IMG/VR virus record: IMGVR_UViG_3300037225_001109
Coordinates: 1 to 26,535 of that record
Strand: one strand, 5' to 3'
Length of the DNA stretch: 26,535 bases
Source: a virus
In this document: piece by piece, positions 7,782 to 24,874 of the stretch
How the letters are laid out: every line of letters starts with the position of its first letter
How positions within the stretch are numbered: the stretch's first letter is position 1
Made by a program: the position numbers and the translations under genes
The notes under the pieces: generated by a model
Database searches by the model: none
What the model saw: the letters and a program-made list of their open reading frames with translations, nothing else
What the model was told of the DNA's origin: nothing

Positions 7782-9087
7782 CGACGGCCCTCCTCATGTC
7801 GCGCCCGTAGGTGTTCAAAGGCAGGCCGGTGAGGTGCAGGACGTTGGAGCCCTTCCACGCATCGCGAGCCAGGGCCAGCGCCCAGAACTCGTCGGCGTGC
7901 CCGGCCTCGTTGCGTTCGGCGTCGTAGCGGAAGTTGCCGCCGGTCGTCGCGATGCGCTTAACCGAGTGGAGCGACGTGCGCGTATCGCTGTCGATGGGGA
8001 TGCGCAGGCGGCGATCCTCGAACTCGGCCTTTAGCGCCGTGGCCAGCGCCTCCTTCGTCGCGAGGGAGAAGGTCACCTTGTCCACGCGGCCTCGGAAATC
8101 GAGGCTGAGATTTTCCGCGAGCATCGCCCCGATACCGGTCTCGTCTATCGAGCAGCGCACCACGCGCTGGTGCCGCATCACCTGCTGGAGAAATGCCTCC
8201 TGCGCGCGGTACGGGACGTTCTTGAGCCGCGTCACGCGGCGAGTCCAGCCGACGTCGCCGGAGATCTCCAGCTCCCAGATCACAGTGAGGTCGTGCTTGC
8301 GGCCGATGTCGACGCCGACGTAGATCGGGCCGCCGACGATGGCCCGCTCGGGGTTGCCTGCCAGGGCGTCCTCGCACGACGAGATGAGGTCGAACGTGAG
8401 GAACGCCTCCGCCTCGTCGAGGAACTCGCACATGAACTCGCGTCGCCAGCCGTCCTCGTCTGAGCCCATGCCCTTGCGCAGGAGCGCGATATCGCGCTTC
8501 ATGCCCATCCGCACCGCATCCTCGATAGTCACCTTGTGGATCTCGAAGATCGAGTCGGGCGCGGTGCAGAGCTCGTAGTAGAGGTCCTTCCCGCGCGGCG
8601 TGGAGGTGATGTAAAACTTGAGATCGTCGCTCGAAGAGACGATCGGGAAGATGATGCTGTACAGCTCGCGATTGTCCTTGAAGAGCGCGAACTCGTCGCA
8701 GATGAGGTTGCCCGTGAGGCCGGCGACGGTGTCAGGGTTGCCCGGCACGGTGATGATGCGCGATCCGTTCGGAAACTCGAACTCGAAGGAGTTGAGCTTC
8801 ACGTCCTCGAAGTAGCTGACGCCAAGCGCCTTTGTCGCCATCTCGTAGGCGCGGAGAAACTTGCGGATCTTGCGCGCGGTTTCCTTCGCCTGGCGGAGAG
8901 AGGCGGCCATGATGATCCACGTCGTCGCGCGCCCCGATGCCTCGTGCGCCATGACGTCGTTGACGACCTTGTAGGCGATGGTGAAGCCCTTGCCGAGCTG
9001 CCGCGCCCACAGGAGGATCATGAAGCGCGCCTGGCTCTCGATGACGCGGCGCTGATATTGCTTAAACTCGAATGCGGAGGCGACCAT
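7771..9087 (-). CDS. Terminase large subunit (Mu gp28-like)
   Basis: This 438-residue packaging motor has both expected domains. The ATPase domain has Walker A ARQLGKGF (28-35), Walker B LICDE (128-132) and motif III TSTP (161-164). The RNase H-like nuclease domain has metal-ligand candidates Asp260 (YVGVDIG), Asp315 (SIDETG) and Asp399 (HADEF). It would cut and translocate phage DNA into proheads; in Mu-like phages packaging proceeds from the integrated end by a headful mechanism. ATG at 9087 overlaps the TAA of the small subunit gene (TAATG). Its own stop lies 10 bases inside the portal gene, indicating tight translational coupling. Confidence 0.93.
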   Translation of the reverse strand: MVASAFEFKQYQRRVIESQARFMILLWARQLGKGFTIAYKVVNDVMAHEASGRATTWIIMAASLRQAKETARKIRKFLRAYEMATKALGVSYFEDVKLNSFEFEFPNGSRIITVPGNPDTVAGLTGNLICDEFALFKDNRELYSIIFPIVSSSDDLKFYITSTPRGKDLYYELCTAPDSIFEIHKVTIEDAVRMGMKRDIALLRKGMGSDEDGWRREFMCEFLDEAEAFLTFDLISSCEDALAGNPERAIVGGPIYVGVDIGRKHDLTVIWELEISGDVGWTRRVTRLKNVPYRAQEAFLQQVMRHQRVVRCSIDETGIGAMLAENLSLDFRGRVDKVTFSLATKEALATALKAEFEDRRLRIPIDSDTRTSLHSVKRIATTGGNFRYDAERNEAGHADEFWALALARDAWKGSNVLHLTGLPLNTYGRDMRRAVGVA

Positions 9088-12339: not shown

Positions 12340-12495
12340 AGTGCCAGCCTCCTAATCCTCTTCGACGCAGAAAGTATACTTTGTACCCCAAGCCGGGGTG
12401 ATTGCCTTTGGAAAAGATTTTAGTTTTTTTTGTTGAAGGTGGTGAATGGGGGTATACGATATAGAGTAGTGCTACGCGGGAGAAAGGAGGAATGC
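12340..12495. promoter_or_regulatory. Divergent early/repressor control region
   Basis: This 156-bp AT-richer stretch separates the repressor from the early operon. On the plus strand TTGTTG (12430-12435), 17 bases, TATACG (12453-12458) is a candidate early promoter. On the minus strand TATACT (12378-12373) is a candidate repressor -10 with a weak -35. GTATAC occurs in both -10 areas, and CCCC-N6-GGGG symmetry (12386-12399) and GGTATAC/GTACCCC similarity suggest shared operators. The early transcript leader ends in AGAAAGGAGG (12481-12490), a full extended Shine-Dalgarno. Confidence 0.55.
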
Positions 12496-13594: not shown

Positions 13595-13924
13595 ATGACC
13601 ACCGGGGGGATCCGGCAGACAGTAACTCTTGACGAGCTCGCGCGGGCGCTCGACCTCACGCCCTGGGCGCTCCTGCGCTACGCGGCGCGCAAGCACTGGC
13701 CCCTCGCCCCGCGCCGCGACGACGGCCTCATTATATATGTCGCCCTCGTAGACCTCCTGCCGGAAGAAGCACGCGTAGCGCTCAACAACTACCGCGCGTC
13801 CTTGCCGGCGGTGACGCTTGAAGAGATCTCCGCCAAGACCCACATCCCGCTCGAAACCCTCCAGCGCCGCGCTGCGGCCGAGGGCTGGGCATATCGCACC
13901 GTACCCGGAGACACATCACGATGA
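13595..13924 (+). CDS. Small Mu-type winged-HTH protein ahead of the transposase
   Basis: This 109-residue protein carries two HTH-like segments. The first is TLDELARALDLTPWALLRYA followed by KHWPLAPRRDDG and LLPEEARVAL. The second is TLEEISAKTHIPLETLQRRA followed by EGWAYR. Both resemble the N-terminus of the adjacent transposase (SLRELAATTGIPRTTIMRRA..EAWPSR..LPDDIRTAL), a Mu-type wHTH. In Mu this domain family occurs in the repressor and in the enhancer-binding part of MuA. GGAGG lies 10 bases before the ATG. The stop overlaps the transposase start (ATGA). It may act as a detached DNA-targeting subunit of the transpososome or as an early regulator. Confidence 0.75.
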   Translation: MTTGGIRQTVTLDELARALDLTPWALLRYAARKHWPLAPRRDDGLIIYVALVDLLPEEARVALNNYRASLPAVTLEEISAKTHIPLETLQRRAAAEGWAYRTVPGDTSR

Positions 13925-15741
13925 TCGCGATCTCTCTCAGAGAGCTTGCCGCCACGACGGGCATCCCGCGCACGACGATCATGCGGCGCGCGCAGCAGGA
14001 GGCGTGGCCGTCCCGCCTCGTCCGCTGCAACGGAGGCCTCCGCCGCGAATGCCTCGTCGTGGGACTGCCCGACGACATTCGTACAGCGCTTACCCCCGAC
14101 GACCCGGAGTCACAGGCTGCCGTCTCGGCCTGCGACTCCGGGGCCGCTTTGCCTGAGCCCCGGCGTCGCCGCCCGGCGTATGCGACATTCGCCTCGGCGC
14201 CCGAGCGCTATCGCAACATCGCCACGCACCGCGCGGAGCTCCTCCATGCCTGGCAGCGCCGCACCGCGGAGATGGCCGTCCCCCTCGAGGCCGCGGTCAA
14301 CCCCGCCTGGGGCGTCCCCGTGCGCACCCTCTGGCGCTGGAAGGATCGCTACGCCGCGTTCGGGATCGACGGCCTCCTCCCGCGCTGGGGCGGACCGGAG
14401 ACGATGATACCGGAGGAGCTGTGGCTCGCGTTCCTCGGCGTGTACCTCGATCTCAATCAGCCCTCGGTTCAGCTCGCCTACGAGCGCGCACTCATTATAT
14501 ATGCGGAGGCGCACGCGGGAGACGTCACCGACGCGCCGTCGGTCACCGCGTTCCACCGCCGCGTTCGCCGGCTGCCGCGCGCGACTCTCATCCTCCAGCG
14601 CGAGGGCCGCAAGGCCTATTACGACAAGGCCGAGCCGTATCTCCTGCCCGACCGCTCCGCGCTGCGCGCCAACGACCAGTGGGTCTTCGACCATCACCTC
14701 CTCGACTTCTACTGCCGCGACGAGAACGGCAAGCCCTGCCGCCTGTGGGTGACCTTCGCGCTCGACGTCGCATCGCGGTTCGTCGCGGGCTGGCAGGTCT
14801 GCGCGAAGCCGTCGACCGACTCCATCCTCGCGACGCTCGCGAGCGGCGTCCGCAAATACGGCGCGCCCTGGCAGGGCTGGATGGACAACGGAAAGGACTT
14901 CTCCTCGAAGGAGGTCTCCGGCGGCGGACGTCGCCAGTTCGGCAAGCCGCGGTTAGAGGAGGGCAAGGTCCAGCCCATGACTGAGGCGCTCGGGATCGAG
15001 GTGCATTTCAGCTTGCCATACAATGCCCGCGCGAAACGCGTCGAGCGGTCGTTCAAAACCCTCGCCAATCGCTTCTCTCGCGAGTGGAAATCATACTGCG
15101 GGAACTCGCCGACCAATCGCCCCGAGACGGCGGCCTACTACTGGGCGCATCCTTCGGAGTGTCCATCGATCCACGACGTGATCTCGCGCCTCGCCGAGTG
15201 GATCGACTGGTACCACAAGCGCGTCCACGCCGGTCGCGGCATGAAGCGCCGAACGCCGGAGCAGGTGTTCGCGCTCGGCCAGGACGCCGCGCGCCGCGTG
15301 GACTCCTCCGCCCTCTCCGTTATGGCGCTGCGCCAGGCTCGGCCGCAGACGGTGAAGAGGAACGGGGTCTCGCTCTTCGGGGACCTCTGGTACTGGAACG
15401 CGGAGCTTCACACGCACCTGGGCGAGACGGTCATCGTGCGGTACGACTCGGCCGACCTCTCGCGGGTACATGTATTCGACGTCGACGGGCGCCAGATCGC
15501 GACCGTCGAGCGAAGCGAGCTCGACGGCGTCACGCGCGCCGACGTGGGCAAGGCCCTCGCCACGCAGCGCCGCGCCCGCAAGGCCGCGGCGGCATCCCTC
15601 GCGCCGCGGGTCGACTGGAAATACGGAATCGATAAGGACGCGCCGACCCCGACAGAAGCACGGTCGCGCGCGTCTCAAAACGCCCAGGACATGAGCGCGC
15701 TCGACGATGAGCTCGGGAACGCGCTCGCCAACGCGGGCTAA
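13921..15741 (+). CDS. Mu-type DDE transposase
   Basis: This 606-residue protein catalyses strand cleavage and transfer for integration and replicative transposition. Residues 1-58 form a Mu-type wHTH. Residues ~100-240 are the end-binding region (with LWRWKDRYAAFGIDGLLPRW, an HTH-like helix set). The RNase H-like core carries Asp257 (WVFDHHLLDF), Asp322 (GWMDNGKDF) and Glu375 (RAKRVERSFK). The C-terminal Mu-type beta barrel (~475-535) contains GVSLFGDLWYWNAEL and VHVFDVDGRQIATVE. The charged tail probably contacts the ATPase partner. The length fits MuA-type enzymes (~600-660). The ATG overlaps the upstream stop. All catalytic residues are present, so the enzyme is predicted active. Confidence 0.95.
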   Translation: MIAISLRELAATTGIPRTTIMRRAQQEAWPSRLVRCNGGLRRECLVVGLPDDIRTALTPDDPESQAAVSACDSGAALPEPRRRRPAYATFASAPERYRNIATHRAELLHAWQRRTAEMAVPLEAAVNPAWGVPVRTLWRWKDRYAAFGIDGLLPRWGGPETMIPEELWLAFLGVYLDLNQPSVQLAYERALIIYAEAHAGDVTDAPSVTAFHRRVRRLPRATLILQREGRKAYYDKAEPYLLPDRSALRANDQWVFDHHLLDFYCRDENGKPCRLWVTFALDVASRFVAGWQVCAKPSTDSILATLASGVRKYGAPWQGWMDNGKDFSSKEVSGGGRRQFGKPRLEEGKVQPMTEALGIEVHFSLPYNARAKRVERSFKTLANRFSREWKSYCGNSPTNRPETAAYYWAHPSECPSIHDVISRLAEWIDWYHKRVHAGRGMKRRTPEQVFALGQDAARRVDSSALSVMALRQARPQTVKRNGVSLFGDLWYWNAELHTHLGETVIVRYDSADLSRVHVFDVDGRQIATVERSELDGVTRADVGKALATQRRARKAAAASLAPRVDWKYGIDKDAPTPTEARSRASQNAQDMSALDDELGNALANAG

Positions 15742-15767: not shown

Positions 15768-16706
15768 TTGGTAAAGCGCGAACTCACACAAGAGGAACGC
15801 GAGATCATCAAGCGCCTGGAGGAGCACCGGGACACGTCGGGCTTCTCGAACGCGCAACTCGCGAGGAAGATCGGCATCGGCGCCGCTACGCTCTCGGAGC
15901 TTTTCAGCGGCAAGTACGAGGGGGCGGGGACGCTCGTCCTGCCCAAGATCCGCCGGTGGCTCAACTTCCAGGAGCGCGGCGGCGTCGAGTTCCTCGAAGG
16001 CGACACGGTCGAGACCGCCGTCTACAAGGGCGTGCAGACGGTGTGCCGCTACGCGCACAAGCGCGGCCGCGGGGGCCTCATCATCGGCGGCGCTGGCGTC
16101 GGCAAGACCACGGCCTTGAAGAAATACTGCGCCGAGAGCCCCAACGCGCACTATATCGGCCTCGGACCCACGCACACGGGCAAGGGGTTCCTCACGCGCG
16201 AGATCGCCTATCGACTCGGCGTGCCCTCCAGGGACCGGATCACGACCGTGCAGAAGGACCTCCTCGACGAGCTCCGGGACGCCAGCGCCTTCATCGTCTT
16301 TGACGACGCGCACTTCCTGGGCCCTATGTCGATCGCCCTCATCCAGTATATCCACGACCAGACGCGCTGCGGGTTCGTCCTCGCGGGCGTGCCGATGCTC
16401 CACACGCAGATGGTCCAGTCGAAGGACACCGAGTGGTTCGCCCAGATCCGCTCGCGCTGCGGGATCATCCGCAGGTTCGACGCCTCCGAGGTCACGCACG
16501 AGGAGGCCGTCGACGTGGCGCGCGCCATCCTGAAAGGAAGAGACCTCGCCCCCGACGCCGCCAACCTCCTCGCCGAGGTCGCCCGCGCCCAGGGCGGGTA
16601 CCGCTCAGTCGAGATGGCCGCGTCGCTCGCGCTCGAGCTCGTTAAGGACGGGCCGATTACCAAGGGCCTCATTGAGAAGGCACTCGCTTACAGGAGGGGA
16701 CTGTGA
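15768..16706 (+). CDS. MuB-like AAA+ transposition ATPase
   Basis: This 312-residue protein delivers target DNA to the transposase and gives target immunity in Mu. An N-terminal HTH (about 21-64: SNAQLARKIGIGAATLSELF) precedes an AAA domain with Walker A GGAGVGKTT (107-115), Walker B FIVFDDAHFL (175-184), and the downstream sensor region FVLAGVPMLHTQM. A C-terminal helical part follows. The TTG start at 15768 is supported by AGAAAGGAG upstream. The gene directly follows the transposase, as in Mu and Tn7/Tn5053-type elements. Confidence 0.92.
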   Translation: MVKRELTQEEREIIKRLEEHRDTSGFSNAQLARKIGIGAATLSELFSGKYEGAGTLVLPKIRRWLNFQERGGVEFLEGDTVETAVYKGVQTVCRYAHKRGRGGLIIGGAGVGKTTALKKYCAESPNAHYIGLGPTHTGKGFLTREIAYRLGVPSRDRITTVQKDLLDELRDASAFIVFDDAHFLGPMSIALIQYIHDQTRCGFVLAGVPMLHTQMVQSKDTEWFAQIRSRCGIIRRFDASEVTHEEAVDVARAILKGRDLAPDAANLLAEVARAQGGYRSVEMAASLALELVKDGPITKGLIEKALAYRRGL

Positions 16707-16795
16707 CCGCAAAGGAATTCATCGTCGGCTATGCCGCGGGCCTGGCCGTCGTCGCGCTGTGGTGGGCCGTGGTGGCAATGGTCTTTGCGCTGTAG
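16703..16795 (+). CDS. 30-residue single-span membrane peptide
   Basis: A GTG overlapping the MuB-like stop (GTGA) and preceded by AGGAGGGG opens a 30-codon frame. The product is VTAKEFIVGYAAGLAVV followed by ALWWAVVAMVFAL: a short polar start and one hydrophobic segment. Its TAG stop is inside a dispersed hairpin repeat. The strong Shine-Dalgarno and overlap argue that it is translated. Function unknown; tiny early phage membrane peptides often inhibit host proteins or affect the membrane. Confidence 0.65.
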   Translation: MTAKEFIVGYAAGLAVVALWWAVVAMVFAL

Positions 16796-16834
16796 GGGCC
16801 ATCCCGACGAGTTGGGATGCCCGAGAAAGGAGGG
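16791..16834 (+). repeat. Hairpin repeat at gene junction (copy 1)
   Basis: TGTAGGGGC, a variant stem (CATCCC / GGGATG with GACGAGTT loop) and GCCCGAGAAAGGAGG. It gives the TAG stop of the 30-residue peptide and abuts the Shine-Dalgarno of the next gene. Confidence 0.85.
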
Positions 16835-16838
16835 TTCA

Positions 16839-17255
16839 TTGAACGGGGGAAGTCAGGTTCGATCGAGGGAGTCGCACAAGGGCGTGCGCAGGGAGCAGGC
16901 GCTGCGGCGAATACTCCTCATGCGCGCGGCCGCCGTCCACGAGAAGCTCAACGATCTCGTGGTCGACGTGCGTGCGCTGCGGGCCGCGCTCGCGACGACG
17001 GAGACCTGCGCCTATGAGGGCGTGCAGAGGCGCTTCGCCGACGCGGTCGCGGGAACGGCCAACGAGGTGTTCGTCCTGGCCGAGGAGTTCTGCGGCGGTT
17101 ACGACCAGGCGCGGCTGGAGCGGCACATCGAAAAATGCGCCGCCCTCGCCGGCGCATATCACGCCGCCGCGGACGAGGCGGTTGACGAAGGGTCAGACGT
17201 GAAGCTCGACGACGCGCTCGTGCTCGTCGGTGCGGACAAGGGAAGAACTTCTTAG
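16839..17255 (+). CDS. Early helical protein, unknown
   Basis: The 138-residue product starts at TTG (AAGGAGG, 5-base spacer, immediately after the hairpin repeat). It begins with a basic segment (SQVRSRESHKGVRREQALRR), then is almost wholly helical: ILLMRAAAVHEKLNDLVVDV, ALRAALATTETCAYEGVQRR, then a segment with LERHIEKCAALAGAYHAAAD. No catalytic or metal motif is seen, and no family recognised. It lies between the transposition genes and Gam. Confidence 0.65.
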   Translation: MNGGSQVRSRESHKGVRREQALRRILLMRAAAVHEKLNDLVVDVRALRAALATTETCAYEGVQRRFADAVAGTANEVFVLAEEFCGGYDQARLERHIEKCAALAGAYHAAADEAVDEGSDVKLDDALVLVGADKGRTS

Positions 17256-17261
17256 GCTCTT

Positions 17262-17360
17262 CTCTGTGACTGGCGCAGGACGCGCCACTCTGTGAAGGCG
17301 GAGCCGCTCTGTGGTGGAAAGAGAATGCTTCACCACAGAGGACACAGAGAACACAGAGGA
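17262..17360 (+). repeat. 99-bp dispersed repeat (copy A)
   Basis: This 99-bp unit matches 19030-19128 at 97 of 99 positions. It includes a small stem TGGCGC/GCGCCA and a 10-bp stem CTCTGTGGTG / CACCACAGAG (17307-17316 with 17331-17340), and ends in ACAGAG-type direct repeats. It fills the gap between two genes. Confidence 0.95.
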
Positions 17361-17382
17361 CTCGCAGAGAAAGGGATGGAAT

Positions 17383-17886
17383 ATGGCAAAGAGAAAAGTC
17401 ACGCCGCCGGCGCGGGTGATACTGAGTTGGGACGAGGCCAACGGCGCCCTGGCCGAGCTTGCGTGCGCGCGCCAGGAGATAGCGCGCATCCAGACGAACG
17501 CGCAGCGCGAGATCGACGCCATGGTCTACGCCTCGACCGTCGCGGCCGACCCATACGTGAGCGCCGAGGCGGAGATACTCGCGGGCCTGGAGGCGTTCAC
17601 GCGTTCCCACGAAACGGAGCTCGAAGGCCGTTCGAAGCGCCTTCCCCTGGGCGTCGTCGGCCTGCGGAAGGCATCGTATCTCAAGGTCGTTCGCACGGTG
17701 AAATACGTCCTCGACGCGATCAAGGCCCGGGGCGCGGCGCTCGCGCACTGCATCCGCCTCAAGGAAGAACTCGACAAGGAGGCGATCGCGAAGCTCGACG
17801 CCGACACGCTCAAAAGTATCGGCTGCAAGGCAGCCGCCGAGGACAACTTCTACGTCGACCTCGGCGAGGTCACGGTTTCCCTGTAG
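17383..17886 (+). CDS. gam: Gam-like host nuclease inhibitor
   Basis: This 167-residue protein matches the Mu Gam family (Ku-like DNA-end binder that shields DNA from RecBCD-type exonucleases). It has a helical N-terminus (ALAELACARQEIARIQTNAQ), then the family core with a beta turn (SKRLPLGVVGLRKASYLKVV) and the C-terminal CIRLKEELDKEAIAKLDADT followed by EDNFYVDLGEVTVSL. The ATG at 17383 lies behind AAAGGGATGG. The frame continues upstream into the 99-bp repeat (MVERECFTTEDTEN...), which is repeat sequence rather than gene. Its stop TAG is supplied by the next hairpin repeat. Confidence 0.88.
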   Translation: MAKRKVTPPARVILSWDEANGALAELACARQEIARIQTNAQREIDAMVYASTVAADPYVSAEAEILAGLEAFTRSHETELEGRSKRLPLGVVGLRKASYLKVVRTVKYVLDAIKARGAALAHCIRLKEELDKEAIAKLDADTLKSIGCKAAAEDNFYVDLGEVTVSL

Positions 17887-17929
17887 GGGCGAGGCATGCC
17901 TCGCCCATTGGTGTCGCAAGAGAAAGGAG
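17882..17929 (+). repeat. Hairpin repeat at gene junction (copy 2)
   Basis: TGTAGGGGCGAGGCATGCCTCGCCC followed after 15 bases by AGAAAGGAG (the first part is shown in two pieces: TGTAGGGGCGAG, then GCATGCCTCGCCC). It supplies the stop codon of gam and the extended Shine-Dalgarno region of the next gene. Confidence 0.85.
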
Positions 17930-17936
17930 ACATGCG

Positions 17937-18611
17937 GTGGTACAGAAAGCACAGGAGACGAGGGTATCGCAACTCGCGGCGCTCATACTGTGGCTGCGCG
18001 GTCGCGAAGAGGAGATAGCTGCGCACCCGGAGGCCGCGGAGGCGTTTTCCGAGGGTGCGCTCGTCGTCGCGTTGGAGCATATATGCGATTTCCTCAAAGG
18101 CGGCAACGTAGAAAACCGTCGCTGCCAGTTCTGCGGCGTCGAGATCCTCTGCGGCGACGAGGAGGCCAAGGCGCACGCGTTCACCTGCTCGGAACACCCC
18201 GTCCACAAGCTGGCCGTGGCGCTCTCGGACATCCAGACGGTCTTCGACGCCTGGTGGAGCGGCAACCCGCAGCGCCAGCACCTGACGGCCGCATCATTCG
18301 CCTCGACGCTGAAAGAGATCCTCGACAGGCACAAGGCAGAGATCGCAGCGGTCCGGTCGGCGGGTCCGGATGTGCTCGCGCAAGAGACCACGCAGTCCTG
18401 TCCCGACGAGAGCATATCGACCCGTTGTGCCCTCGATCGTCGGCCAGTGTGGCAGGACTACGGGTGCAAGGACTATGTGCTGGCTGAAGGTCTAACCGGC
18501 GAGACCCCGCGCAACGGTGAATGCGACGGGTGCCATTACTGCCGTCCAGCGTCGGTGGGTCCCACTGTAGGGGCGATCCCGACGAGTCGGGACGTCCCCG
18601 AGAAAGGCTAA
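17937..18611 (+). CDS. Zinc-finger-like early protein with repeat-encoded C-terminus
   Basis: This 224-residue protein starts at GTG 17937 (AAAGGAG, 8-base spacer). The N-terminal 55 residues are helical. A probable zinc site follows: Cys63-x2-Cys66 and His80-x3-Cys84 (CQFCGVEILC...HAFTCSEH). A helical middle precedes a second Cys-rich stretch near the end (GECDGCHYCRP). The last ~15 residues (TVGAIPTSRDVPEKG) are translated from a hairpin repeat read in a frame that misses its TAG. The natural C-terminus may therefore have been replaced by repeat insertion. The function is unknown; nucleic-acid or protein binding is suggested by the zinc motifs. Confidence 0.65.
   Translation: MVQKAQETRVSQLAALILWLRGREEEIAAHPEAAEAFSEGALVVALEHICDFLKGGNVENRRCQFCGVEILCGDEEAKAHAFTCSEHPVHKLAVALSDIQTVFDAWWSGNPQRQHLTAASFASTLKEILDRHKAEIAAVRSAGPDVLAQETTQSCPDESISTRCALDRRPVWQDYGCKDYVLAEGLTGETPRNGECDGCHYCRPASVGPTVGAIPTSRDVPEKG
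18566..18607 (+). repeat. Hairpin repeat at gene junction (copy 3, translated)
   Basis: TGTAGGGGCGATCCC, GACGAG loop region, GGGACGTCCCCGAGAAAGG. It resembles copy 1 in its stem. The upstream gene reads through it, and GAGAAAGG serves as the GemA ribosome binding site. Confidence 0.85.
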
Positions 18612-18613
18612 CC

Positions 18614-19063
18614 ATGCCGCTCTCCAAATCCCAGCTCATCACGGTCCACCAGGCGATCAGGGATATCAAGCTCGCCGACGAGGACTACCGCGCGATGCTG
18701 CGGGCGGAGTTCGGCGTGGAGACGTCGAAGAATCTCGACAATCACGGGTTCGAGGCGCTGATGAAGCGCTTCGGTCAGATGGGTTACGTGAAGCCAGGCA
18801 AACAGGTGGCGGCGCCCACCGGCCCCGGCGCCGCCACCAATCAGCAGCAGTTCATGATCGCGGAGCTGCTGCATACGCTCCACCTCGACGCGGGCAGTGA
18901 CTACGCGCGCGGGATCTTCCGTAAGGCCGGCGCGGCGGAGCGCCCCGCATGGTTTACGCGCGCGCAGGCGTCGAAGGTCATAGACGCGCTGCAGTATTTG
19001 GTAAAGCATGGCAAGAACGATGTGGTTCCCTCTGTGACTGGCGCAGGACGCGCCACTCTGTGA
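18614..19063 (+). CDS. gemA: GemA-like protein (Mu gp16 family)
   Basis: This 149-residue protein matches the GemA/DUF1018 family of Mu-like phages. The conserved start is LITVHQAIRDIKLADEDYRA followed by MLRAEFGVETSKNLDNHGFE and ALMKRFGQMGY, and the second half includes NQQQFMIAELLHTLHLDAG and ARGIFRKAG...RAQASKVIDALQYL. In Mu, GemA affects host DNA relaxation and gene expression. The ATG at 18614 is preceded by GAGAAAGG from a hairpin repeat. The final ~10 residues (SVTGAGRATL) and the TGA stop come from the second 99-bp repeat copy. Confidence 0.85.
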   Translation: MPLSKSQLITVHQAIRDIKLADEDYRAMLRAEFGVETSKNLDNHGFEALMKRFGQMGYVKPGKQVAAPTGPGAATNQQQFMIAELLHTLHLDAGSDYARGIFRKAGAAERPAWFTRAQASKVIDALQYLVKHGKNDVVPSVTGAGRATL

Positions 19064-19128
19064 AGGCGGAGCCGCTCTGTGGTGGAAACAGAATGCTTCA
19101 CCACAGAGGACACAGAGAGCACAGAGGA
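19030..19128 (+). repeat. 99-bp dispersed repeat (copy B)
   Basis: Differs from the copy at 17262-17360 at two positions. It starts inside the gemA frame and provides its last codons and stop, then ends 16 bases before the next gene's start, whose Shine-Dalgarno follows directly. Confidence 0.95.
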
Positions 19129-19144
19129 CCGCAGGAGGAAGCAG

Positions 19145-19516
19145 ATGCCTGAGACAACTGACGCCGAGAAGATCTGGGCGGTCCTGGCCTCGCACCGCGA
19201 GAAGTCGCGGTCGATCACCGCGGGCGCGATCGCGCTGGCGACGAGTATTGGGGACGAGGCGGGGACGAAGGTCCGCGAGATCATCTCAGAGAGCTTTGAG
19301 TTCTTCCCCGGCATGCCCGTCGCGGCCTGGGAGCGCGGGTACTTCGTGACGGAGACCGTTGAGGAGGCGCGCGAGTATCGGCGCTCGCTCAAGCAGCGGA
19401 TCGAGATGGACGGCCGGCGCATGGCGATCTACGACCGCAAGATGGAGGCTGCCGGCTTCATCCGAAACGGCGACGCATACTCGCCGCGACAAGGGCTTTT
19501 CGTCGGAGGCATTTGA
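19145..19516 (+). CDS. Early phage protein, unknown
   Basis: This 123-residue protein begins MPETTDAEKIWAVLASHREK behind a good AGGAGG (ATG at 19145). It is mostly helical and acidic, with ..FEFFPGMPVAAWERGYFVTE followed by a charged helix EEAREYRRSLKQRIEMDGRR. Reading the frame further upstream enters the 99-bp repeat. No family is recognised. It ends 14 bases before the next small gene. Confidence 0.65.
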   Translation: MPETTDAEKIWAVLASHREKSRSITAGAIALATSIGDEAGTKVREIISESFEFFPGMPVAAWERGYFVTETVEEAREYRRSLKQRIEMDGRRMAIYDRKMEAAGFIRNGDAYSPRQGLFVGGI

Positions 19517-19530
19517 AGAAGGGGTCGGCT

Positions 19531-19740
19531 ATGAGCTCGATGATTAGACAGATGCGTCGACGGCGCTCGCAAGCAAAGATGTCGCCGGCGCTTGGCCTCG
19601 CCGCCTTCGCCGGACTCCGCGTTAGCGCGAATAAGGCGTGGGATATAGAGGAGCTCGTCGATCGTACGGAGCTTGCCAGGCGCGCAGGGCAGGCGAAGAT
19701 CGACGCCCGCGAAGATGTGGGACTACAGTCTACGGACTAA
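19531..19740 (+). CDS. Small basic early protein, unknown
   Basis: The 69-residue product begins MSSMIRQMRRRRSQAKMSPA, strongly basic at the N-terminus, then amphipathic helices (WDIEELVDRTELARRAGQAK). AAGGGG lies 6 bases before the ATG at 19531. An alternative TTG at 19513 is too close to its GGAGG. GC at third positions fits coding. No family is recognised. Confidence 0.5.
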   Translation: MSSMIRQMRRRRSQAKMSPALGLAAFAGLRVSANKAWDIEELVDRTELARRAGQAKIDAREDVGLQSTD

Positions 19741-19752
19741 GGACTTAATTGA

Positions 19753-19953
19753 ATGGACGGCTACGCGAGCATCACGGAGTTCATCGCGGACAGGGTGCGG
19801 CGGCGATACAGGATCACGTTTATGCACCGGACCGCGACGGACGTCTGGTATCACTGGCGCGGAGGAGATCTCCTTCGCACGACGCGCCTGCGCTGCGGGC
19901 ACTTCTATATCCGCCGCGCGGACTGCGTCCCAAGAGTCGCCGACGCGACCTAA
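19753..19953 (+). CDS. Small early protein, unknown
   Basis: The 66-residue product (MDGYASITEFIADRVRRRYR, then ITFMHRTATDVWYHWRGGDL) is basic and aromatic-rich with two Cys in its last third. AAGGA lies 9 bases before the ATG, and third-position GC is high in this frame, unlike competing frames. It ends 21 bases before the sigma-factor gene. Function unknown. Confidence 0.5.
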   Translation: MDGYASITEFIADRVRRRYRITFMHRTATDVWYHWRGGDLLRTTRLRCGHFYIRRADCVPRVADAT

Positions 19954-19974
19954 CACTGTAGCGTAGGTAACGCG

Positions 19975-20733
19975 GTGCGAAGCAGGACAGACAGAGAGCG
20001 CGCGTGTTGGGAAGCGTACACGGTCACGAGGACGCAGGGCGCCCTTAACGACCTCGTGCGACACTACGCGCATTACGCCGCCTACCTCGCCGAGCGGCAC
20101 TGGCCTGGCGTTGAACGAGACTTCCTGATAGCGGCCGGCCTCGTAGGCATATGGCAGAGTATCACGGCGTTCAGGCCCGACAACGGCAACCGGTTCCTCA
20201 CGTTTGCCACGCCGAGAATGCTCGGCGAGATGCAGGACGCGATGAGGAAGGAGGACCGCCTGAGTCGCGTTCAGCGTTCGCGGAGAAAGCTGCGCGTACG
20301 GGCCGAGCGAGCCTTTGAGGAGCGCACGGGCTTTGCCGCGACAAACGATGAGCTCGCGGCCGAGCTGGGCCTGGATCGCGCTGACTTCGAGAAGTTCTAT
20401 CGGGGCACGGAGCTGGACGATCCCTTAAGCCTCTCGTATTGCACCACGGGCGAGCGCGAGAAATCGCGCCCTCTGTCGGAGTCCGTGGAGGACACGACCT
20501 CGGGCAGTCCGCAGGGCTCCGCGCTGCGAGCGGACTTCTGGAGCAACATAACGCGCTGCCTTACGGCGCGGAATCGCAGGGTAATGATCGCGTTCTATCG
20601 CGACGGCATGTCCTGCGAGAAGATCGCCGAGCACGAGGGGATAACCCAGTCGCGTATCTGGCAGATACTCATGGCGTCGCGTACCCTGATCCGCCGCTCC
20701 GTGAGCGTCGAGGACCTGTGCGTTTCTGGCTAA
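19975..20733 (+). CDS. Sigma-70-family RNA polymerase sigma factor (FliA/SigF-like layout)
   Basis: This 252-residue protein has the three expected sigma parts. Region 2 (about 22-92) includes LAERHWPGVERDFLIAAGLV, GIWQSITAFRPDNGNRFLTF and ATPRMLGEMQDAMRKEDRLS. Region 3 (about 108-140) includes TNDELAAELGLDRADFEK. Region 4 (about 193-242) has CLTARNRRVMIAFYRDGMSC and the HTH EKIAEHEGITQSRIWQILMA. There is no region 1.1. The GTG start has TAGGT six bases upstream. Sitting in the middle of the early operon, it could redirect host RNA polymerase to middle or late phage promoters, a role filled in Mu by the activators Mor and C. Confidence 0.85.
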   Translation: MRSRTDRERACWEAYTVTRTQGALNDLVRHYAHYAAYLAERHWPGVERDFLIAAGLVGIWQSITAFRPDNGNRFLTFATPRMLGEMQDAMRKEDRLSRVQRSRRKLRVRAERAFEERTGFAATNDELAAELGLDRADFEKFYRGTELDDPLSLSYCTTGEREKSRPLSESVEDTTSGSPQGSALRADFWSNITRCLTARNRRVMIAFYRDGMSCEKIAEHEGITQSRIWQILMASRTLIRRSVSVEDLCVSG

Positions 20734-20745
20734 AAGGATCTTCTC

Positions 20746-21834
20746 ATGAACGTTTCACCCATGAACAGGATCGCGGACAAGGGCGTCGATGCCGAGGGGT
20801 CGCGACCGCGCGGCGCGCCGGCAGCGTGCGCGTGGCGGCCGGTGTTTCAGTTCAAGCGCGTCGACGGCGCATTCGGCCATGGCGAGGTCGCGTTCCACGC
20901 GCCGGGCAACGTCGCTCCGGGCAAGAGCGTCGAGGCCACGCACTGCGAGGGGCGATTCCTCATCATGGAGGCGGGAAAGCTCCGCATCGTCGACGTCGAC
21001 GCCGGGCACGTCGAGGACGTCATCGCGCGCCTGCGCGCGGCGCTGGGCCCCGACATGGATATCCACGAGGAGAAGAGCTTTCGCCGGCCGGTGTTCGCCG
21101 GCAAGGCCGCGCACGATAAATTCACGACGCCCGAGGACCGCGCGCGGCGACTGGCAGAGATCAAGGCGCGCCACGAGGCGCTGCGCTCTGCAGGGGCGAC
21201 GCATGCCTCGCCCGCGCGGGCGGACGGTCCGCCCGCGGAGGCTGTGGATGCGATCCCCACAACCGGGTTGACGTTTGAAATCCCGCGGGAGGATGTTCCT
21301 GCCGCGGACGTTGTAGGGGCGACGCACGCGTCGCCCGATGAGCCGCAACACGCGGCCGAGAAAGGAGACGATGCTATGGGAAAGAGGGCAGAGAGGTTGG
21401 AGGCGGATATCAAGAAGCTCCAGGCCGTGCTCAACCAGCACACATGCGAGGACGAGGCTATCACGACCGAGGCGCTCGCGAAGGCCGCGGGGGTGATCGA
21501 CTCTCGCGCCTACACGATCCTCGCGCGCGACGCGAGGCGCTTCGTCGGCAAGCTCATGAGCGGCCAGTCCGGGCGCTGGCTCGCGCCGGCCTCGGGGAAG
21601 ACGGCGCCAGCCGCGGCCGCGGGAGCGCGTCTGACGCCAGGCGGGGACACGCCGGCAGCCGACGCGGATCGCATGCCCGGCAGCCTGATGCAGGAGTTCG
21701 CGACCTATGTCAAGCACAAGGGCTCGGTGGCCGTTTCGCTGGAGTTCACAGAGCGAAGGCTCGGCGTCCATATACATCTCGACGGCCTCGATGAACTGCT
21801 CGCCGTGATCGCGAAGTACAAGGTGCCGGCGTAA
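20746..21834 (+). CDS. Early protein with repeat-encoded linker, possibly a fusion of two genes
   Basis: One frame of 362 residues follows AAAAGGA. Residues 1-~145 form one domain (RPVFQFKRVDGAFGHGEVAF, ..EGRFLIMEAGKLRIVDVDAG). Two hairpin repeats are then translated in frame as GATHASP (around 149 and 191). After the second comes AGAAAGGAG and an in-frame ATG at 21376 that would start a 152-residue protein (MGKRAERLEADIKKLQAVLN). Its ending GLDELLAVIAKYKVPA is a compact alpha/beta tail. So the locus may express a long and a short product. No family is recognised for either half. Confidence 0.6.
   Translation: MNVSPMNRIADKGVDAEGSRPRGAPAACAWRPVFQFKRVDGAFGHGEVAFHAPGNVAPGKSVEATHCEGRFLIMEAGKLRIVDVDAGHVEDVIARLRAALGPDMDIHEEKSFRRPVFAGKAAHDKFTTPEDRARRLAEIKARHEALRSAGATHASPARADGPPAEAVDAIPTTGLTFEIPREDVPAADVVGATHASPDEPQHAAEKGDDAMGKRAERLEADIKKLQAVLNQHTCEDEAITTEALAKAAGVIDSRAYTILARDARRFVGKLMSGQSGRWLAPASGKTAPAAAAGARLTPGGDTPAADADRMPGSLMQEFATYVKHKGSVAVSLEFTERRLGVHIHLDGLDELLAVIAKYKVPA
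21189..21213 (+). repeat. Hairpin repeat inside a coding frame (copy 4)
   Basis: TGCAGGGGCGACGCATGCC followed by TCGCCC; TGCAG replaces TGTAG. It is translated as part of SAGATHASP within the 20746-21834 frame. No Shine-Dalgarno tail follows. Confidence 0.8.
21312..21367 (+). repeat. Hairpin repeat inside a coding frame (copy 5)
   Basis: TGTAGGGGCGACGCACGCG then TCGCCC, about 24 intervening bases, and GAGAAAGGAG just before the internal ATG at 21376. The TAG is out of frame here, so the sequence is read as VGATHASP and joins two parts into one protein. Confidence 0.85.
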
Positions 21835-21888
21835 CGGACTCTTTGGGTAAGGCTTTGCCGACGGCAAGGTAGTAGTGAGTGCGTGAGG

Positions 21889-22103
21889 ATGTATGTAGGG
21901 ACGGCCACGTGCCGCGTATGCGGGCGCGTCGTGGACGTCACGGCGCCGTGCGAGCGCCGCGAGATCCGGGGCACGAGATGCTGGCGTTCTTTTTCATTTA
22001 CTGCCGCGAAGGACATCCGGCCGCCTGGAATGTGAAGGTAGCGTGGGAAGAAGCTGTAGGGGCGACGCATGCGTCGCCCGACACAGAGGACGCAAAGGAG
22101 TGA
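21889..22103 (+). pseudogene. Small zinc-ribbon gene, apparently frameshifted
   Basis: From ATG 21889 the frame encodes MYVGTATCRVCGRVVDVTAP, with CxxC, very high third-position GC, and then loses coding character. In the -1 frame the downstream part MLAFFFIYCREGHPAAWNVK followed by VAWEEAVGATHASP looks coding and ends at TGA 22103. The alternative single frame from 21879 has an Arg-rich, shadow-like N-terminus. The best explanation is one ~70-residue protein split by a shift near the T5 run at 21989-21993, either a mutation, a sequencing error or slippage. The last residues come from a hairpin repeat. Confidence 0.4.
22055..22080 (+). repeat. Hairpin repeat at gene junction (copy 6)
   Basis: TGTAGGGGCGACGCATGCG followed by TCGCCCG, a perfect stem, then a short ACACAGAGGACGCAAAGGAG stretch that resembles the second repeat family and provides the next gene's Shine-Dalgarno. 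Confidence 0.85.
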
Positions 22104-22106
22104 TGT

Positions 22107-23156
22107 ATGACAATGCAACCGCGGCCGAGGGGCAGCTCCGTCGTTGCCCCTATCGGCGTCTTCATGATCGTCTCGTGGACATTCATTATCGCCGTGGTGT
22201 GGCTTGCTTTCCTGAGTCACCCGCGCGCGTTCTCGGCCGCCGCGACGATCCAGTCCACCGCGCCGGGCGGCCCAGCTCTCACGGCGCAGTCGCCCTGGCC
22301 GGCCGGCATGGGCGTCTGGAAGTACGGCTCGGACGCCGACTCGCGCGCCTGGTACAAGACCGCGGGCATCGCCTGGTACCAGGCGTGGAGCGGGCGGTAC
22401 ACCGGCCTTGATCATCCTTATATATATGAGATCAAGACCGGCAACTGGTCGACGGCCGAGATCACGTCCTGGCTCGCGGTGCGGGAGCCGAATCGCTTCG
22501 GCGTCAACATCGACTGCGAGGTGCCCCGCACCGCGGCGACCGTTGGGGTCGCGCAGCGGGCGCGTGCGCTTGGACTAAAAGTGTTCACTGGCCCCTGCCC
22601 CTGGGACGTACAGGGGCAGGGTTACTTTTCCGCGTTCGACGGCATCATGACGTTCTACAACGTCACCGGGCCGACGAGGTTTCCCGCGGACGTCTTCTAT
22701 TTCAAGGCGCTTAGCTACTACTACGGCAAGCCGATGTGCTTCGGTGTCCAGCCCGTCGATAGCGACGGCAACCCCGTCGACGCCGCGGCGCTCGCCCAGG
22801 CCGAGACGTATGCCTCGTGCTTCGAGGGCCGCATCGCCTGGGGAACCGACCGCCTCGTCGATTCGACGGCGAGCGGCGCCGCAGCCGTGACCGCCGCGCT
22901 CGCGTCCATCGTCCCGGACGTCCCGCGCACGATCGTGACGGTGCGCTTCCAGAAAAGCTGGCGCCTCGACATGGCCCTCTGCCGCTGCGTCGCCTACCAG
23001 GGCTGTCTGCCGCAGGCATCGCTCACGGCAGGCGTGACGTGGGCCAACCTCGTCGTGCCGAAGGACTACATGTCAAATCTCACAAAGTTCTACGACGGCA
23101 GATGCACGAAGGCGACGCTCGAGAAAGAAGAGAGAGGGATGACGTGGAAGAAATAG
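22107..23156 (+). CDS. Membrane-anchored putative TIM-barrel (glycosidase-like) protein
   Basis: This 349-residue protein has an N-terminal membrane segment or signal anchor (about residues 14-36, VAPIGVFMIVSWTFIIAVVW), then a Ser/Ala linker. The large domain resembles a glycosidase-type TIM barrel: AWYKTAGIAWYQAWSGRY, RFGVNIDCEV (a DxE-like pair), GLKVFTGPCPWDV, FDGIMTFYNVTG, PADVFYFKALSYYYG, GRIAWGTDRLVD. Family assignment is by pattern only. Several Cys in the last third could form disulfides if exported. AAGGAG lies 6 bases before the ATG. It could be a cell-wall hydrolase (an endolysin or entry enzyme) or a surface-modifying protein. Confidence 0.6.
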   Translation: MTMQPRPRGSSVVAPIGVFMIVSWTFIIAVVWLAFLSHPRAFSAAATIQSTAPGGPALTAQSPWPAGMGVWKYGSDADSRAWYKTAGIAWYQAWSGRYTGLDHPYIYEIKTGNWSTAEITSWLAVREPNRFGVNIDCEVPRTAATVGVAQRARALGLKVFTGPCPWDVQGQGYFSAFDGIMTFYNVTGPTRFPADVFYFKALSYYYGKPMCFGVQPVDSDGNPVDAAALAQAETYASCFEGRIAWGTDRLVDSTASGAAAVTAALASIVPDVPRTIVTVRFQKSWRLDMALCRCVAYQGCLPQASLTAGVTWANLVVPKDYMSNLTKFYDGRCTKATLEKEERGMTWKK

Positions 23157-23217
23157 ATCCTCACCACAGAGAAATAGATCCTCACCACAGAGGACACAGA
23201 GGACACAGAGGAAGGGA
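23149..23217 (+). repeat. ACAGAGGACACAGAG repeat with 21-bp tandem duplication
   Basis: A 21-bp unit containing AGATCCTCACCACAG occurs twice in tandem (23149-23169, 23170-23190), followed by ACAGAGGACACAGAGGACAC-type direct repeats. It overlaps the stop of the upstream gene and ends before the AGGAGG of the next gene. Confidence 0.85.
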
Positions 23218-23229
23218 GAGGAGGAAGAC

Positions 23230-23364
23230 GTGGCAAATCATAAAGCGCCGAGGCAGTACTGCAATAAGGCCGGGACGTGTCCTTATCAGCACCAGGAGAT
23301 CGTGATGGCGCGCTGTCGCCTGCCGCGATCGAACGCGTGCGCGTACAGGAGACGCTTGAAATAG
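23230..23364 (+). CDS. 44-residue Cys-rich protein
   Basis: GTG at 23230 behind AGGAGG (5-base spacer) opens 44 codons: VANHKAPRQYCNKAGTCPYQ, then HQEIVMARCRLPRSNACAYR and RRLK. Four Cys (C11, C17, C29, C37) and a His fit a small zinc-binding fold, and the C-terminus is basic. It is flanked by a repeat on each side, and the strong ribosome binding site supports translation. Function unknown; nucleic-acid binding is possible. Confidence 0.65.
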   Translation: MANHKAPRQYCNKAGTCPYQHQEIVMARCRLPRSNACAYRRRLK

Positions 23365-23370
23365 ACTTGC

Positions 23371-23406
23371 CGTAGAGGCGATGCATGCATCGCCCGAGAA
23401 AGGAGG
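23371..23406 (+). repeat. Hairpin repeat at gene junction (copy 7)
   Basis: CGTAGAGGCGATGCATGC then ATCGCCCGAGAAAGGAGG: a perfect stem followed at once by the extended Shine-Dalgarno of the DUF4031 gene. Confidence 0.88.
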
Positions 23407-23410
23407 ACTA

Positions 23411-23725
23411 ATGGCCGTCTACGTAGACGAGCTCTTCGATACAGAGATCTACAAGAGCGCCAAGTGGAAATACAAGCAGGCGTGCCACATGTTCGTCGAG
23501 ACGCTTGACGACCTGGAGGAGCTGCATCACATGGCTGACGCGATCTGTTTGTTGCGCTCGTGGTATCAGGGACCGCCTACGCAGTCGCTTCCGCACTACG
23601 ATCTGACGCCGCGCAAGCGCCTTCTCGCGATCGCGCAGGGCGCGATCCCGCTGACACCCGCGGAGGCCAACGCTAAGATGAGGAAATACTTCACCGCGCT
23701 CCATGAGCGAGAAAGGGAGAATTAA
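23411..23725 (+). CDS. DUF4031-family protein
   Basis: This 104-residue protein fits DUF4031, a small family frequent in phages: start MAVYVDELFDT, then ACHMFVETLDDLEELHHMAD, LLRSWYQ, PHYDLTPRKRLLAIAQGAI and PLTPAEANAKM. The conserved CHM, HYDLT and GA segments are all present. Biochemical function is not established. The ATG at 23411 follows AGAAAGGAGG from the hairpin repeat. Its C-terminus (..EREREN) lies two bases before the next gene's GTG. Confidence 0.82.
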   Translation: MAVYVDELFDTEIYKSAKWKYKQACHMFVETLDDLEELHHMADAICLLRSWYQGPPTQSLPHYDLTPRKRLLAIAQGAIPLTPAEANAKMRKYFTALHEREREN

Positions 23726-23726
23726 G

Positions 23727-24275
23727 GTGTACGTACTCAAATCCGGCGACGCGCTTCTCGTCGTCGGCAACGACGCGATCTCGAAAGCGATCGAGATCGA
23801 GGAGTGCGGCGGGTGTCTCCCGGACGGGACGAGGCCGAGCCACATGGCGATGTACGTGAACGACCGCGGCGTCGGCAAGGTTTTCGAAATGACCTGGCCC
23901 CGCCTCCAGGTCACAGCCCCCGCCGACTCCTGGCTCGCGGCGCGTGCCGGCACGGTGTGGTTGCTGCCGCTCGCGGAGGCGTTGACCTACGGCCAAAGAT
24001 ATGGCCTGTGCGACTGGTGGACCAATCGTCTCGGTATGTGGTACGACGTCCCCGAGATGATCGCCCTCGGCTGGTACGCGACGTGGGCGTGGTGGCTCAA
24101 AGCGCTCCATCTGCCGGCGTCGTGGGCGATCCCTCCGGTCGCGATTAACGGCGTGTGCTCGGTGAACTGCGCGATGGCGTGGAACGCGATCGGCCTCAAC
24201 GTCGGCGATCCCCTCGTCGTCACGCCGAGCTCGGCAATAACGCTGCCCTGCGTGGGCGTTCCCGTAAAACTGTAG
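23727..24275 (+). CDS. Permuted NlpC/P60 (YiiX-like) papain-fold hydrolase candidate
   Basis: This 182-residue protein follows the circularly permuted papain-fold layout. An early strand-His segment has SGDALLVVGNDAISKAIEI and RPSHMAMYV (His39), and a late Cys segment has NGVCSVNCAMAWNAIG (Cys144, alternative Cys148). Enzymes of this group cleave peptides or amide/ester bonds in cell wall or lipids. A Trp-rich middle (LGWYATWAWWLKAL) may contact a membrane. The GTG at 23727 has GGGAG 7 bases upstream; the ATG at 23703 lacks one. The stop TAG is in a hairpin repeat. A lysis or wall-remodelling role is plausible. Confidence 0.65.
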   Translation: MYVLKSGDALLVVGNDAISKAIEIEECGGCLPDGTRPSHMAMYVNDRGVGKVFEMTWPRLQVTAPADSWLAARAGTVWLLPLAEALTYGQRYGLCDWWTNRLGMWYDVPEMIALGWYATWAWWLKALHLPASWAIPPVAINGVCSVNCAMAWNAIGLNVGDPLVVTPSSAITLPCVGVPVKL

Positions 24276-24338
24276 GGGTGATCCCGACGCAGGCGAACAC
24301 ACTGTAGGGGCGATGCATGCATCGCCGGAGAAAGGAGG
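24271..24338 (+). repeat. Two hairpin repeats in tandem at gene junction (copies 8 and 9)
   Basis: A truncated copy (TGTAGGGGTGATCCCGACGC, 24271-24290) supplies the stop of the preceding gene. A complete copy (24302-24338) has stem GGGGCGATGCATGCATCGCC and ends in GGAGAAAGGAGG, the Shine-Dalgarno of the next gene. Confidence 0.88.
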
Positions 24339-24343
24339 AGCTC

Positions 24344-24577
24344 GTGCCGCTTGAACGTGAGGAAGAGATTGAGGAGCACCTGCCTAAGGTGCCAGCACGC
24401 GCTACGGCTGAGCAGCGCGCGCAGTTCGAAACGATGCTGGCTGAAGTGGAGCGTACCTTAAATAACGTTCATCGTCTCGCCTGCGAGACCGGCCACCTGC
24501 ATGACAGCATCGCGTACTATATCGACGAGCTGCGCGGGCAGGTCGAATGGCTCGTGGGCAAGGTGGCGGAGTTGTAA
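24344..24577 (+). CDS. Small coiled-coil early protein
   Basis: The 77-residue product starts at GTG 24344 (AAGGAGG, 5-base spacer) and is acidic and helical: EREEEIEEHLPKVPARATAE, QRAQFETMLAEVERTLNNVH, then DELRGQVEWLVGKVAEL. It probably forms a helical hairpin or oligomer. No family is recognised. Confidence 0.6.
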   Translation: MPLEREEEIEEHLPKVPARATAEQRAQFETMLAEVERTLNNVHRLACETGHLHDSIAYYIDELRGQVEWLVGKVAEL

Positions 24578-24613
24578 TGCTTCACCACGCAGGATACAGA
24601 GCATACAGAGGAC
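24578..24613 (+). repeat. Degenerate ACAGAG-type repeat
   Basis: TGCTTCACCACGCAGGATAC, AGAGCATACAGAGGACAAG: a diverged copy of the end of the 99-bp repeat, lying between a stop codon and the GGGAGG of the next gene. Confidence 0.75.
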
Positions 24614-24628
24614 AAGAAGGGAGGATCG

Positions 24629-24874
24629 ATGGGCTGCGATAATTGTGGTAGATCTACCCCTATAGGAGCACGACTCTGCATCCCGTGCTCTGAGAGGGAG
24701 AAGCGCGATGCCAAGCGCGCTCTGGCGTTGCAAACCAAGACCGCCGAGGCCGAGGAATTACGTGGCCGACTCGTCAAGGCCGCGAACTATATTAGGCCGT
24801 TCGTTGAAGGTCGGAAGCGGAGCTCCACACTGGAAGCCGGCCTGCGGGAAGCCCTGCGTTTATTGGAGGGATAA
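24629..24874 (+). CDS. Zinc-ribbon plus coiled-coil small protein
   Basis: This 81-residue protein begins with a classic treble-clef/zinc-ribbon pair: Cys3-x2-Cys6 and Cys17-x2-Cys20 (MGCDNCGRSTPIGARLCIPC). A charged helix follows (SEREKRDAKRALALQTKTAE) and a short C-terminal helix. GGGAGG precedes the ATG at 24629. It could bind nucleic acid, RNA polymerase or ribosome. It ends 4 bases before the next gene. Confidence 0.65.
   Translation: MGCDNCGRSTPIGARLCIPCSEREKRDAKRALALQTKTAEAEELRGRLVKAANYIRPFVEGRKRSSTLEAGLREALRLLEG

Follow-up and report, generated by a model that had tools for sequence, protein, structure and literature searches.

The hairpin repeats that recur along the early operon of a Mu-like phage are probably host-type REPs (repetitive extragenic palindromes), tolerated as passengers in the slots between stop codons and Shine-Dalgarno sites, rather than a designed module; we put the probability of this reading at about 0.7. 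It rests on the family identity of the hairpins, in both sequence and structure, on their occurrence in bacterial chromosomes, on the turnover of the slots in related phages, and on the absence of a bias towards start codons or towards one orientation. REP-like repeats are known from chromosomes; here they appear to have entered phage operons, where individual slots gain and lose them.

The DNA analyzed here (the window) is a complete virus record of 26,535 bases, and its genes identify it as a Mu-like phage. They include a MuA-type transposase (13921-15741), a MuB-type ATPase (15768-16706), Gam (17383-17886), GemA (18614-19063), and a sigma-like protein (19975-20733), as well as the large subunit of the terminase (7771-9087), which is encoded on the strand opposite to the early genes. 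The closest relatives of its MuA were about 31% identical. Near relatives of the phage were found neither in IMG/VR by a MuB search nor in an annotated phage collection by a DNA search.

Nine GTAG-tailed hairpins were located in the early operon between positions 16792 and 24327, all on the + strand, which is the transcribed strand. This agrees with the preliminary description, which had reported nine copies within 7.5 kb, all in the direction of transcription. Six of the hairpins fitted the pattern GTAGGGGCGANGCATGCNTCGCC with at most two mismatches, a result obtained 0 times in 100 shuffles. The exact sequence TGTAGGGGCGA was present in only five, and three (at 16792, 18567, and 24272) had a second stem type, GATCCCGACGAGT or close to it. 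The 3' arm is missing from the element at 24272, and the hairpin at 21190 carries a C.C mismatch in its stem. Stem stability of the intact copies ranged from -11 to -21 kcal/mol.

Three of the hairpins supply the stop codon of the upstream gene with their own TAG, at the positions proposed earlier. In hairpin 1 (16792 to 16823, second stem type), the TAG at 16793-16795 ends a small membrane ORF that begins with GTG at 16703, and AGAAAGGAGG at 16824 and a TTG start at 16839 follow. In hairpin 2 (17883 to 17906), the TAG at 17884-17886 is the stop codon of Gam, with AGAAAGGAG at 17921 and a GTG start at 17937 downstream. The degenerate element 8 (24272 to 24303, second stem type) terminates the ORF 23703-24275 with its TAG at 24273-24275; it is followed by hairpin 9 (24304 to 24327), AGAAAGGAGG at 24329, and a GTG start at 24344. 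Only these three of nine, about one in three, as frame chance allows, give a stop, because translation continues in frame through the copies at 18567, 21190, and 21313. Hairpin 3 (18567 to 18599, second stem type) is translated (VGAIPTS) as the end of the ORF 17937-18611 (VGAIPTSRDVPEKG), and is followed by AGAAAGGC and the ATG of GemA at 18614. Hairpin 4 (21190 to 21213; AGATHASP), a GCAG variant with one mismatch, and hairpin 5 (21313 to 21336; VGATHASP) both lie in frame within the ORF 20746-21834. Behind hairpin 5, AGAAAGGAG at 21359 and an ATG at 21376 could form an internal gene start, and the ORF may represent two genes joined by repeats. Hairpin 6 (22056 to 22079) precedes a CACAGAGG repeat piece plus AAAGGAG and an ATG start at 22107. 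Hairpin 7 (23372 to 23395) begins 7 nt past the TAG stop (23362-23364) of the ORF 23230-23364, and AGAAAGGAGG at 23397 and the ATG of a DUF4031 gene at 23411 come next. We also noted another perfect palindrome (GCGGGCGGACGGTCCGCCCGC) at 21214-21240, between the two in-frame hairpins of the ORF 20746-21834.

The same early account had placed AGAAAGGAG after the stem at six sites. The motif was exact at 16824, 17921, 21359, 23397, and 24329, and at 18600 only AGAAAGGC was present; the sequence downstream of the 22056 copy was GCAAAGGAG, within a CACAGAG repeat piece. Occurrences of AGAAAGGAG without a hairpin were confirmed at 12481 and 15753. The placement of a repeat family between stop codon and Shine-Dalgarno site is supported. 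With strict patterns, the hairpin joined to AGAAAGG had no further match in viral or genome sequences.

Two unrelated repeat families share the same slots in the window. The second family (CACAGAGGACACAGAG; CACAGAGG) fills four further gaps of the operon and shares a fifth, with all copies on the + strand and directly 5' of Shine-Dalgarno sites. Its copies occupy the gaps before Gam (17262 to 17370) and before the ORF starting at 19145 (19030 to 19138, where the GemA ORF ends within the repeat), these two being 98% identical across 100 nt; others lie before the ORFs at 23230 (23163 to 23222) and 24629 (24563 to 24622), and the piece behind hairpin 6 spans 22080-22097. The gap between genes could be measured at nine repeat-bearing junctions and was 43 to 127 nt at eight of them. 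The ninth, before GemA, was 2 nt, since the upstream ORF reads through its hairpin. Repeat-free junctions had gaps of at most 33 nt in 12 of 13 cases. The gaps at the repeat-bearing junctions are made by the repeats. Shine-Dalgarno pairing was slightly stronger for genes behind repeats (P = 0.049, with one start in the table, g190, mis-set), as would be expected if coupling to the upstream gene were lost; this difference is suggestive only.

The core pattern of the hairpin was found in 72 stretches of IMG/VR viral contigs. At least 119 stretches of bacterial genomes also carried it; they came from many phyla and groups, among them Chloroflexi, Planctomycetota, Clostridia, Gemmatimonadetes, Acidobacteria, and Proteobacteria. 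The preliminary description had likewise mentioned similar repeats in many environmental genomes. A Pseudohongiella chromosome (OX638341.1; loci L204, L209, L230, and L233) had 286 forward and 270 reverse matches and a Glassbacteria genome had 52 and 49, counts in which full palindromes match on both strands. Judged by sequence and structure, the hairpins fit a GTAG-type REP family that is dispersed in bacterial chromosomes and is not phage specific. GTAG REPs are defined by GTAG and a short stem with alternative complementary pairs; their TAG often terminates the flanking gene, and they lie near the 3' ends of upstream genes, with some inside genes (PMC3733652). In the window, GTAG at one end of a 6- to 13-bp stem with a short loop was seen, with the stem intact or nearly so, in seven of nine copies. 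High copy number was seen in other bacteria (Pseudohongiella and Glassbacteria), and mostly extragenic placement near 3' ends with TAG as a stop codon was seen at both viral and chromosomal loci. The hairpins of the window, with stems of 8 to 9 bp, have the GTAG tail and the short stem-loop with alternative complementary stems in common with GTAG REPs, and both families show high copy numbers in some chromosomes, placement near 3' gene ends, use of the TAG as a stop codon, and in-frame copies inside genes. They differ in lying inside phage operons, which go unmentioned for GTAG REPs in PMC3733652, and in having no consistent transposase neighbor. We regard the hairpins as elements of an established kind whose occurrence at such a place is under-described. 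A literature search did not turn up the exact consensus GTAGGGGCGANNCATGNNTCGCCC, the family figure of PMC3733652 lying outside its reach, and Rfam gave no covariance-model match up to an E value of 1 for positions 16700-24700.

TnpA-REP enzymes cleave at a CT adjoining GTAG (PMC8266576), and CT stands directly 5' of GTAG (or GCAG) in seven of the nine window copies (16790-24304); no clear enrichment of CT before GTAG was seen in other loci. In REPtrons, TnpA-REP (RAYT) recognizes GTAG together with a hairpin (PMC8266576), and the window copies likewise combine the two. These systems have a Y1 transposase, whereas none is present in the window record and none was found in the Pseudohongiella genome, despite its many matches. 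A Y1 transposase domain was encoded in 30 of 41 repeat-bearing genomes. A transposase adjoining the hairpins was not a general feature, with only one clear case of hairpins near a Y1 transposase in 30 loci. The copies would come from the host, and an enzyme acting in trans would move them; because the genome of the host was not found, we infer this origin from other bacteria. The second stem type was also used to search for the host, but it matched none of 294 genomes from a single phylum, the one to which a Planctomycetota MAG belongs, and none of 39 repeat-bearing genomes.

Placement was analyzed with gene calls from a simple script, which are approximate; several small genes of the window were miscalled, and hand-checked ORFs were used there. 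In a crude count, a Shine-Dalgarno site and start followed the hairpin in 26/176 and 32/176 viral cases (for the two directions), compared to 4.4% of random positions, and no such excess was seen at chromosomal loci. The viral excess is misleading because phage gaps are short, and it was overturned by a gap-corrected test in which each hairpin was placed randomly within its own gap (80 viral gaps): 18 hairpins were near a start, compared to 16.6 expected. By the same test, 28 viral hairpins lay within 10 nt of a stop codon versus 16.7 expected, and 15 versus 7.8 did so in chromosomes. The TAG was donated as a stop codon in 9 viral cases versus 1.1 expected and in 6 chromosomal cases versus 0.5 expected. 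Where a gene runs into an element, its reading frame was that of the TAG in 21 of 42 cases in viruses and in 15 of 27 in chromosomes. Orientation relative to transcription was random across phages (37/77). Corrected for gap size, placement at both viral and chromosomal loci was drawn towards the stop and showed no pull towards the start.

A distant Mu-like phage (the contig of L057/L082; MuA 31% identical) shows the same anatomy. Five same-strand GTAG elements, at 6896, 7408, 8151, 13505, and 14496, each lie before a start codon, and three of them supply a stop codon. Gam is one of the genes ended in this way, as it is in the window. One opposite-strand copy lies inside a gene. The stem of the element at the end of Gam differs from that in the window, so parallel insertion is likely there, and a shared old site is conceivable. 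The strongest evidence for empty and refilled sites is a group of siphophage-like contigs (with terminase, portal, head, and tail proteins) whose flanking DNA is 70 to 100% identical. Most homologous slots in this group were polymorphic, being empty or filled with a REP or an unrelated repeat. At the junction L010-9446, the slot is empty in L006, L022, and L027, where stop codon and Shine-Dalgarno site are close together without an insert; L010 and L018 carry a REP and L014 a AATTATCAATT repeat. In L018, the TAG of the element stands in place of the native TAA and the end of the protein is kept (PSQI* to PSQL*). The slot at L014-8547 is empty in two relatives, whose start and stop almost touch; in L014 it contains a REP and then a fresh AAAGGA. 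Three alternative fillings occur at the junction L022-5871, namely a REP, GTACAAG repeats, and GGGTTACGGG repeats. REP slots of the Mu-like pair L009/L040 are also occupied by other repeats. Homologous junctions in relatives thus differ in their insert: the slot is stable and its content changes. Candidate empty sites in Erwinia were rejected, as the intergenic region was too variable and offered no clean breakpoint.

If the hairpins are tolerated passengers, GTAG-type REPs would have landed in the early operon and persisted where they are least harmful, in the short space from stop codon to Shine-Dalgarno site or in frame within a gene. An element could replace the native stop codon because it starts with GTAG, and would end up beside a Shine-Dalgarno site because phage gaps are tiny. 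Slots would be reused over time, standing empty or taking up a REP or another repeat. As a putative by-product, the hairpins may mildly affect coupling or mRNA stability. An apparent regulatory module can arise by insertion and purifying selection, and compact phage genomes with many relatives offer empty and filled sites that could settle how repeats move and affect flanking genes.

One point against passengers is the direction of the repeats in the window: all nine hairpins and all CACAGAG copies point with transcription, which would be rare under random insertion. The slightly stronger Shine-Dalgarno pairing behind repeats and the failure to link the hairpins to a Y1 transposase also count against them. 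The uniform orientation, together with the repeated anatomy, favors a purpose-built phage module, as originally suggested, in which stop codon, hairpin, and strong Shine-Dalgarno site would end translation, shield the mRNA, restart genes independently, and set their ratios. The five same-strand copies before starts in the Mu-like phage of L082, the stable stems of the intact copies, and the stronger Shine-Dalgarno sites behind repeats point the same way, as does the stalling of ribosomes reported for E. coli REPs at most 15 nt from a stop codon (PMC12306157). We nevertheless consider such a module unlikely. Gap size accounts for the nearness to starts, the orientation rule is absent across phages, some copies are read through in frame inside genes, the slots of relatives are empty or hold other repeats, and hairpins are lacking at the sigma-like gene and at the starts of MuA and MuB. 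The module is not needed to explain the position of the hairpins, and its best support is their orientation in this one window.

The repeats might instead be interchangeable intercistronic spacers, any of which would uncouple the translation of its neighbors and be kept for that, whatever its sequence. This idea agrees with the presence of two families within one operon and with the variety of families that relatives carry at a single slot. Relatives often have empty slots as well, however, and uncoupling is therefore dispensable; we regard the proposal as very improbable. A wider version, in which host repeats of several unrelated families serve environmental phage operons as interchangeable elements that uncouple neighbors and tune expression by turnover, seems decidedly unlikely to us. 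The hairpins are G+C rich and intergenic, which would suit intrinsic terminators or attenuators in the early operon, but a T-run followed none of the nine, none appeared in the terminator-like list, and the Rfam search gave no match; this scarcely conceivable reading is already contradicted by the sequence. The tolerated REPs proposed here also differ from the SAS and ESAS of cluster K mycobacteriophages, which are phage-specific 13-bp repeats that contain the Shine-Dalgarno core, are essentially absent from host genomes, and, for SAS, are conserved gene by gene (PMC3203893). Both are repeats with an inverted repeat directly upstream of starts, share one orientation, and occupy the genome half that carries the non-structural genes (PMC3203893). 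SAS are phage specific and conserved, whereas the window hairpins belong to a repeat that is widespread and abundant in chromosomes, lies 5' of the Shine-Dalgarno site, and turns over.

Minor features were noted in the same material. In L052, at about position 693 on the - strand, a run of nine A residues precedes a hairpin that is translated in frame (GKKKSVGAIHESP), and at the homologous site of L027, exactly 18 nt of the in-frame hairpin are missing, in frame. In the window, positions 1-222 form a direct tandem repeat of a 111-nt unit, 94% identical, within coding sequence at the record's end.
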